Assembly (NCBI RefSeq): GCF_030704535.1
Contig: NC_081815.1
Span: forward strand, 1,751,001 to 1,815,000
Origin: Vitis vinifera
Lineage: Eukaryota; Streptophyta; Magnoliopsida; Vitales; Vitaceae
Direction of reading: 5' to 3'
Length of the DNA: 64,000 bases
Shown here: positions 6,849 to 9,800 of the stretch, piece after piece
How positions within the stretch are numbered: position 1 is the stretch's first letter
Layout: each line of letters starts with the position of its first letter
The notes under the pieces: model-generated
Seen by the model: only the letters and a program-made list of their open reading frames with translations
Told to the model about the DNA's origin: nothing
Database searches by the model: none
Made by a program: the position numbers and the translations under genes

Positions 6849-9800
6849 ATGGGGTTGGTGGTGGAAGTGATATGGAGGCTAGTGAAGCTCTGTGCCATTG
6901 CCTCTTGCTTGTTTATTCAAGGATCTACAGGTAGTTTTTTGGTTTTTGTAATTCTTAGTTCAATTTTGATGTAATATAATTTGCCCGTGTGGCTGTTTTA
7001 TCCAATTTCATGTGGGGTTTTCTTAGGGTGTTTGGATGATAAGATTCTTATCTGGGTTGATTAAATACCATCTTTCATATGTTGTTTACATGATAAGTGA
7101 TTGGAAGAAACTTCACATGTGTGCTCAATGTTGTAATTGAAATTTTCTTGTTGCCAATTCATCTAATAATGGGGACTGCTACAGTTGAGATCAGAAGGTT
7201 TTTAGTCGATCTGATATGTCATATCTTGTAAAATGTCCAGAAGAGTGTGGACGAATACAACTTTAACAGTTAGATTTGTGCTCACAGCTCTCTGAGTTCA
7301 ATTTTTTTTTTCCTGAGAACTCTAATAACCGATTTTTCCAGTAATCTGTTTTCTTATTCCCATCCAGTGTTTGCACTTAGATTTGAGCTCACAGCTTTCT
7401 TGAGTTCAAATTTTTTAATTTTTTTTTCCCCTAGAACTCTAATAACCAATTTTTCCAGTAATCAGTTTTCTTATTTCCATCTAGTGTTTGCAAATAGCAA
7501 TGTCTTTTAGCATCATCACCACAGTCCAGGCTTCTCCTGGGGAATGATTGAGAATGTATCTTAGGAATGCCTTTTGTTTAGCAGTATTAGCTGCTTATAG
7601 TATTTAACAGTTGTCCCACATATTCTCATCTGATAACATAAATTCAGAAAGTTGAGATGCATTTTCCTAGTGGGTTAGTATCCCACTATCTCATCGTAGT
7701 TAGATTCCCTTTCCACCAGTTAGCTTCCAATCTTTCTCCTTTTGGAGATTTAGTTTTCTAACAGGGATGAAGGATTTGATACGGCCCCCAGAGTTTTTGA
7801 GTAATAGTGGAAACTAGCAATCTCTCTCAGGGTTCAAAATCTCGGTCGATACCAGTACGACTTGGCCGAGTCGTATCCGCCTCGACCATGGCCGGTACCG
7901 GACCGATACCCGAGTTGGATAACCAACACTTCCTTCTCTCACTGCAAATTCAAATGGACTTCTTCAATCAATTTTGTAATTCGTATCCATTTCCGTCGGA
8001 TTCCCATTTTGTCAGCACGCCAGAGAGTTCTTCAGTGTCGGACTGGCAGACCCGGAGGACCATCCAATCCAACGAGGAAGTTCTGCGGGCGTCGGATCGG
8101 CCTAAGAAGTGCGCCGGTAGGAGGAAGTTTAAGGAGACACGACACCCAGTACAGGGGAGTGAGGAGGAGGAACGGGAACATGTGGGTGTGCGAGCTGCGG
8201 GAGCCCAATAAGAAGTCGAGAATATGGCTGGGGACGAATCAAACTGCCGAGATGGCTGCCCGGGCGCATGATGTTGCTGCATTAGCGTTTAGGGGCCGGA
8301 AGGCCTGTTTGAATTTTGCTGACTCTGCGTGGAGTTTGCCCGTGCCAGTTTCGAAGGACTCCATGGAGATTAGGAGGGAAATATTTTTAGAGATTTTTAA
8401 TAGTATTTTAAATCATCCCAAAAGTATGCTTTTATTATAATTTGAATAATTTTAATATAATAGAAGTTTATTTATTAATTTTTCATTCTATTTATTTGTA
8501 TTTAATTTTTTAAATAATTTTTATAATTTTTTAAAATTATTTAAAGCTCTTAAATTAGAATTTTTTGCGTATCACCCGATACCAATCCGAGATATCGAGA
8601 CAGATGTGTCTCAAGACCTCCCGAGTCAATAACCGATACCGCGACTTTGAACTATGATCTCTCTCTTTTATTTTTTTTTTCCTTTCCATTTTTTGGTGCC
8701 ATGTTCATTTGCATTTTTATAGCCTAAAAGAAATTCGTGATTCTGTGAATCTTAATGGAAAACGAAATTAGAGTGACAATTTTTTTTTATGATATAATGA
8801 GTTAGCTTTCTATTTTACATGTTTGATACCTGTTGAGAAGTGTCGGGACCTTTTGCAGTTGATTTGAAGTGTTATAAACCTATTTTTGAACACTTAAATG
8901 ACATAATAGCATGAACTGACGATGAATGTCCATAGCTTGTTTGTGTTCTCTACTGCTTTGCTGAGAACCGATATTTTTATATCATATTCCAGGGTACAAT
9001 ATATCTCCAACTCCATCAACTTTTCCTCCAATTTCTTCCATAGAAGGACGACCTGGTGTTGTCCACCGAGGAAAGTCATTGAGAAGCAATGCACCAAGTC
9101 CATCACTTCAGATAAATGGTAGCTTTCTGCAACCCTTGCACTGTAAAATGTTATTGATCTTGAGATTATTTTTAATTAAGCTTATGGTTTGGCAATCTAG
9201 GGCCTGCTTTGCACCCTCCACTTGTATTGCCACCCATTAAATCTGCTCCAGCACCTGAAATGACCAAAGGCTATGTGCCATCAATGCCACCAAGTAATCC
9301 AAGAATGTCACCACCACATTATAAAACTCCTCCACACTTAAAGGTTCCAATAACTCTACCATCCGTCCCACCAAGTGCTTCTCAAAGGAAGGCACCTGAT
9401 AATAAGGCTCCTGTTTGGGCTCCAGTTGCTCCAATTGCTCCAGTTGCTCCAGGTATATGTATACAATTGATAAGGGTTTTGTTGTGCGCTCACTAGATTT
9501 CCTGTTGAAACTAATTGTAAGCCTGTGCTTTTGTTTCAATATACAGTACCAGATGGACCACCTCAGAGGAAATGGCCACAAAATCCTCCATCCATGCACC
9601 CACACCCAGTGATGCCTGGATTACTGCCACCAAGTGCTCACAATAGGAACAAGCCAGATAATAAGGCTCCAATCTCAACGCCAATTGCCCCAGGTACATG
9701 GTTGATTAGAATTGTGCCATCACTAGATTTCCAGTTGAAGTGGATGCTAAGCGTCTAAACCCACTATTTTTTGGTTCAACATACATTATGGGATGCATTA

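Follow-up and report, generated by a model that had tools for sequence, protein, structure and literature searches.

The Pack-MULEs of rice belong to the Mutator superfamily, make 9-bp target-site duplications and use a different transposase from the one considered here for the element described below, which they resemble in being small and in carrying a GC-rich 5' gene piece. Elements of the hAT superfamily end in short inverted repeats that begin with C/T-A and have a G at base 5. Pack-hATs, which count among the Pack-TYPE transposons, are known in maize (PMC8903248). They are like the present element in being non-autonomous hATs with an 8-nt duplication and coding DNA between the terminal repeats, located within genes; the present element differs in that it lies in another genome and has an identified CBF donor, three copies and two right junctions. 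Grapevine hATs with gene pieces are also known (PMC2528002). Hatvine-6, a transduplicating grapevine hAT, is alike in that its inner part often matches genes, and differs in having 13-bp repeats and 9-bp duplications and in that 35 of its elements still have the greater part of the transposase (PMC2528002). The accessible part of that report does not mention a CBF cargo in Hatvine-6, and our family was matched to none of the Hatvine families named there. In the open-access literature on Pack-MULEs, Pack-TYPE elements, Vitis transduplication, MITEs and CBF capture, no title or abstract opening among the papers listed names a CBF-carrying element; the one paper listed for CBF capture is a study of a CACTA transposon in lettuce. 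The kind, a hAT with a captured gene piece, is already known; this CBF-carrying member is new.

The element was found in a stretch of 64,000 nucleotides of the grapevine genome (the window, C11:1751001-1815000), and related sequences were sought in the entire assembly (495.6 Mb, 21 contigs). The element and its parts are the following.

7820..7827, no strand: left target-site duplication ATCTCTCT, 8 bp (8-bp rule, 34 of 38 family members with at most one mismatch)
7828..8656, plus strand: element of 829 bp, read as a non-autonomous hAT (Pack-hAT), with family borders
7828..7846, plus strand: left terminal inverted repeat CAGGGTTCAAAATCTCGGT (20-nt arms, 80% complementary)
7828..7921, plus strand: left family segment, also present in non-CBF elements (genome search; left junction identical in three CBF copies)
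7922..8378, plus strand: captured CBF/DREB1 fragment, 97% identical to C2:3762421-3762879
8379..8656, plus strand: right family segment, 278 bp (the right ends of L064, L066, L067 and L048 align with 74-77% identity over 234-235 bp)
8638..8656, minus strand: right terminal inverted repeat CATAGTTCAAAGTCGCGGT (end-pattern match)
8657..8664, no strand: right target-site duplication ATCTCTCT (same 8-bp family rule)

The ends proposed in the original prediction, inverted copies of GTTCAAAxTCxCGGT, are present at 7832-7846 and 8638-8652 without any mismatch. Within the window alone this motif is too weak against chance to prove an element (2 found versus 1.12 expected, with two mismatches allowed). 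Longer end patterns of 22 and 24 nt were more informative, with 89 and 145 matches in the genome at up to two mismatches and none for either reversed control. The original prediction is right that the insertion is a DNA transposon of the non-autonomous kind and that it has captured a piece of a CBF gene.

Searching the genome with positions 7820-8665 identified at least 78 matching pieces (best 40 of 333 candidates scored), most of which covered the two ends only. Among those scored, the near full-length matches were the window copy itself on C11, C19:15001656-15002482 (97%) and C17:9308408-9309373 (in two pieces). One locus, C2:3762421-3762879, matched the middle only (97%), and many further loci matched at both ends with the middle absent. 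Other copies with the same ends, on whose existence the proposal of a mobile element had been staked, are therefore present. For the analysis of borders we took 39 stretches, namely 36 family loci, the C17 and C19 copies, and the donor. One of the 36 loci, a tandem array on C7, was excluded from the counts, and 38 elements were analysed, including the window copy.

An 8-bp duplication is characteristic of the family. It was exact in 30 of the 38 elements (including L021, after correction of its left border) and had at most one mismatch in 34, while 4 members had no recognisable duplication (two or more mismatches). When flanks of different elements were mispaired as a control, only 1 of 1406 pairs agreed with at most one mismatch. 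The window copy is flanked by the identical 9-mer ATCTCTCTC (7820-7828 and 8657-8665; 7 occurrences in the window), as had been noticed before, but only the 8 bp ATCTCTCT are target-site duplication, and the ninth base is the element's own. In all 38 members AGGG is preceded by C (32 members) or T (6 members), after the L021 correction; this base is therefore part of the element, which in the window begins CAGGG. A ninth flank base agrees in just 9 of the 34 members with an 8-bp duplication. Since the ninth base belongs to the element, its agreement in the window copy is taken as a chance match within a CT repeat. The short terminal inverted repeats follow the hAT pattern of a C/T-A start with G at base 5; the first base is C or T in all 38 members, and a few members, among them L047 and L023, have a base other than A in second place.

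Some further loci with such ends were seen. L050 (C7:20392600-20402000) is a head-to-tail array of family elements that share ends. Paired ends with 8-bp duplications were seen in L054, L057, L059, L061, L062, L063 and L065; the duplication has one mismatch in L057 and is exact in the other six. The inner parts of these elements differ, and L062, which measures 3236 bp, contains part of the transposase-family body. On C5, four matches to the right end (2019616, 2127592, 2235469 and 2343347) follow one another at intervals of 107.9-108.0 kb, which would suggest either a tandem repeat with a unit of about 108 kb or an artefact of the assembly.

Larger relatives with transposase domains were found among 20 more stretches taken around end matches. 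A complete element of 6.5 kb (C2:10582520-10589048) has CAGCGTTCAAAAAATCGGC and CATGGTTCAAAGTCGCGGT at its ends, is flanked by an exact duplication of 8 bp (TTTCCAGT) and encloses a frame with DUF659 (PF04937, E 4e-57) at C2:10585658-10586809. DUF659 was also found in L066 (E 2e-56) and, as a piece below the Pfam cut-off, in L048 (E 1e-4). In L064, which is more than 90% identical to the same transposase body, the domain identified is that of hAT dimerisation (PF05699, E 1.1e-7). We take DUF659 to be a hAT transposase domain, an assignment supported by its linkage to PF05699 within one body. PF04937 and PF05699 are both found among related elements with ends of this type. The body of L048 is matched at 90-95%, most of it by L066 and L067 and the last 1.7 kb by L064. 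In L048 and L049 the ends are paired and a matching duplication is absent. Compared with the window element, the right ends of L048, L064, L066 and L067 are 74-77% identical over 234-235 bp, that of L049 is 72% and that of L058 69% identical. Because the likeness is confined to the right end and the left end is modified, these elements are relatives and not a proven mobiliser. They form a related hAT family, which may have supplied the transposase in trans.

These data bear directly on the Mutator label that the original prediction had given to the element. A Pack-MULE of the Mutator superfamily with a 9-bp duplication would account for the nine matching bases around the window copy, in the accessible part of one survey every duplication found for a grapevine MULE has 9 nt (PMC2528002), and MULEs are known as gene capturers. 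The family as a whole speaks against it. Its duplications are of 8 bp and its ninth base is internal to the element, as set out above. In a Pfam scan of 10 frames from end-bearing loci, 4 had a match and 6 had none; all 4 matches were to DUF659 or hAT dimerisation domains, and none to a MULE transposase. We consider a Mutator identity hardly credible, and the label, which the family duplications rule out, has to be given up. The element is in all likelihood a Pack-hAT, that is, a member of the hAT superfamily: a host-gene fragment (7922-8378) lies inside a non-autonomous element, the remainder of which consists of two family ends.

The donor of the cargo is an intact, single-frame CBF gene of 244 codons on C2. 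An AP2 domain with a signature of 17 letters marks CBF proteins, and the donor protein has both this signature and the domain. With all 147 candidates scored, the only other matches of at least 90% were the elements on C11, C17 and C19, and the next paralog after the donor, on C16, has 65% protein identity. The captured DNA begins 32 nt ahead of the ATG, takes in the first 142 codons and stops one base into codon 143. It belongs to the CBF/DREB1 group by its identity in DNA to this donor, with a frame that is broken in the window. A retrogene origin of the cargo was considered; the donor, itself one open frame, offers no basis for judging it. The accessible parts of three reports (PMC4196112, PMC3022922, PMC5866948) do not settle the donor's published name. 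The reading frame of the window copy is interrupted as follows.

7954..8211, plus strand: truncated frame from the CBF ATG, 85 amino acids and stop, AP2 domain absent
Between 8149..8150, plus strand: site of a 2-nt deletion that breaks the AP2 frame (alignment with the donor and the C19 and C17 copies)
8150..8296, plus strand: rest of the AP2 domain in another frame (Pfam AP2 PF00847, E 3e-11, residues 2-50 of the translation of 8147-8437)

The cargo had been described as a CBF piece that includes the whole DNA-binding domain. The AP2 domain is real, as the Pfam match demonstrates, but the deletion breaks its frame at the very start.

The CBF cargo is found in at least three elements, on C11 (window), C17 and C19. 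Each of the three loci has its own exact 8-bp duplication (ATCTCTCT, ATTGGAGA and GTTGTATC), from which it follows that the cargo moved after capture, as expected for a Pack-TYPE element. The left junction is common to all three copies (...GAGTTGGATA|ACCAACACTT), and the right junctions are of two kinds. In the C17 copy, 418 nt of CBF sequence are joined to family position ~740 with an overlap of ~3 nt; in the C11 and C19 copies, 459 nt (457 in C11) are joined to position ~918, the captured piece extending 41 nt further into the CBF gene. Read by eye, the junction overlaps are 0-3 nt. Either order of the two right junctions requires one extra event. The C19 copy differs from the donor at 6 of 459 positions, the C11 copy at 11 of 457 and the C17 copy at 14 of 418. 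Two differences are common to all three copies (L45R and one silent change), C11 and C19 share two more (K77M and one silent change), and the 2-nt deletion is restricted to the window copy. The C19 and C17 copies have open frames of 186 and 159 amino acids with the AP2 domain, into which K77M of C19 falls; the C-terminal part of the donor is absent. At 554-1060 of L047, the C19 copy is within or next to a frame that matches the plant mobile domain (PF10536, E 1.1e-19).

In a tree of the element ends the three CBF copies group, with a non-CBF element, L011, among them. Support along the L011 and CBF branches is low (0.694-0.895, with 0.739 for the join of L011 and C11). Since L011 falls inside the CBF group, a single origin is not established by the tree. 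Better evidence for it comes from the left junction that the copies have in common.

The capture would have started from a non-autonomous hAT of about 1.2 kb that lost its middle, to be replaced by a copy of the 5' part of the one CBF/DREB1 gene on C2. The most likely route is that a break left by transposition underwent error-prone gap repair with template switching. One lineage would have gone through a further event, which led to the two right junctions, and hAT transposase acting in trans would then have moved the chimera to at least three places, one of which is the window locus. The pattern of junctions fits gap repair with template switching, as does the lack of element ends at the donor, for which we searched 9.9 kb around the gene (none at E 1e-5). 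A gene-capture review, in its accessible part, gives another mechanism, the Pack-CACTA model, by which the fragment would have been taken up when two neighbouring elements, one on either side of the CBF gene, were excised aberrantly (PMC13317346). The same search left no trace of neighbouring elements at the donor, though such footprints could be lost; moreover, the cargo stops within the coding region, and one left junction combined with two right junctions is a better fit to template switching. We regard aberrant excision as unlikely and retain gap repair as the probable route.

The window copy landed in intron 1 of a kinase gene of the ALE2 type, in sense orientation, in agreement with the original prediction. 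The host gene is recognised by ALE2_N and kinase domains downstream on the same strand.

6849..6930, plus strand: coding part of host exon 1 (predicted; in-frame join to 8993, GT..AG ends)
6931..8992, plus strand: host intron 1 (predicted), which holds the element; flanking exons join in frame
11493..11975, plus strand: host open frame with ALE2_N (PF23180, E 1.9e-60)
12644..15113, plus strand: three host frames matching kinase domains (PF07714/PF00069 on 12644-13081, 13118-13645 and 14403-15113)

Element and cargo are both sense to the host gene. The same intron also contains a tandem duplication (7297-7380 and 7414-7497, 117 bp spacing, 88% identity over 84 nt, ungapped).

The substitutions in the three cargo copies are dominated by changes typical of deamination. 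Among private substitutions in ungapped alignment columns, 15 of 20 are C>T or G>A. CG and CHG sites, which make up 118 of 247 C/G positions, carry 14 of the 15 (P 2.7e-4). Coding changes account for 14 of the 15, with 8 replacements and 6 silent changes (145:91 possible). One more G>A, V66M in C17, lies in a gapped column and was excluded from these counts. The replacement ratio is near neutral and gives no sign of selection on the cargo protein. The substitutions suggest a cargo that is methylated and unselected; as a sign of silencing they are to be read with care, as CG-rich mutation is also possible in methylated genes. From its DNA, the window copy is probably a neutral and methylated intronic cargo that would leave its host gene unaffected. 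No product is expected from it, because its AP2 frame is broken.

A function of the other two copies would require that the open AP2 frames of C19 and C17, which lack the activation part, or small RNAs derived from the cargo, interfere with CBF genes. The two frames of 186 and 159 amino acids are compatible with this. An array study of cold-treated grapevine flowers, in the part accessible to us, reports that two DREB1/CBF genes were raised, VIT_02s0025g04460 and VIT_19s0138g00090, whose names place them on chromosomes 2 and 19 (PMC6429367). On C19, the Pack-hAT copy is the nearest CBF match (97%), and the others listed there do not exceed 57% identity, so that our guess is that VIT_19s0138g00090 may be the C19 copy (C19:15001654-15002482); the chromosome-2 gene may, as a second guess, be the donor. 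For VIT_19s0138g00090 the guess starts from the chromosome number, and cross-hybridisation of a probe on the array with the donor would explain the signal. Furthermore, the neutral replacement ratio, the deamination pattern and K77M in the AP2 domain of C19 are not what a functional cargo would lead one to expect, and the capture of only 32 nt upstream of the ATG means that the donor promoter was left behind. Interference with CBF genes is thus very improbable. Still further-fetched is its most specific form: proteins made from the C19 and C17 frames, with the CBF DNA-binding domain but lacking the activation part, would in the cold compete with CBF proteins, the C19 copy would already be annotated as VIT_19s0138g00090, a cold-induced CBF gene, and the window copy would be a decayed sibling.

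Taken as a whole, we are confident in an account that combines a Pack-hAT, capture by gap repair, mobilisation in trans and a silent intronic cargo. The locus would represent a clean case of hAT gene capture: a single donor is identified for three descendants, which have the same left junction, show two right junctions and, except for one copy, keep the reading frame open. It also shows how the view of a single copy, together with a chance ninth base in a CT repeat, led to the wrong superfamily. For grapevine annotation it serves as a warning, since what is called as a CBF-like gene on C19 may be the cargo of a transposon.
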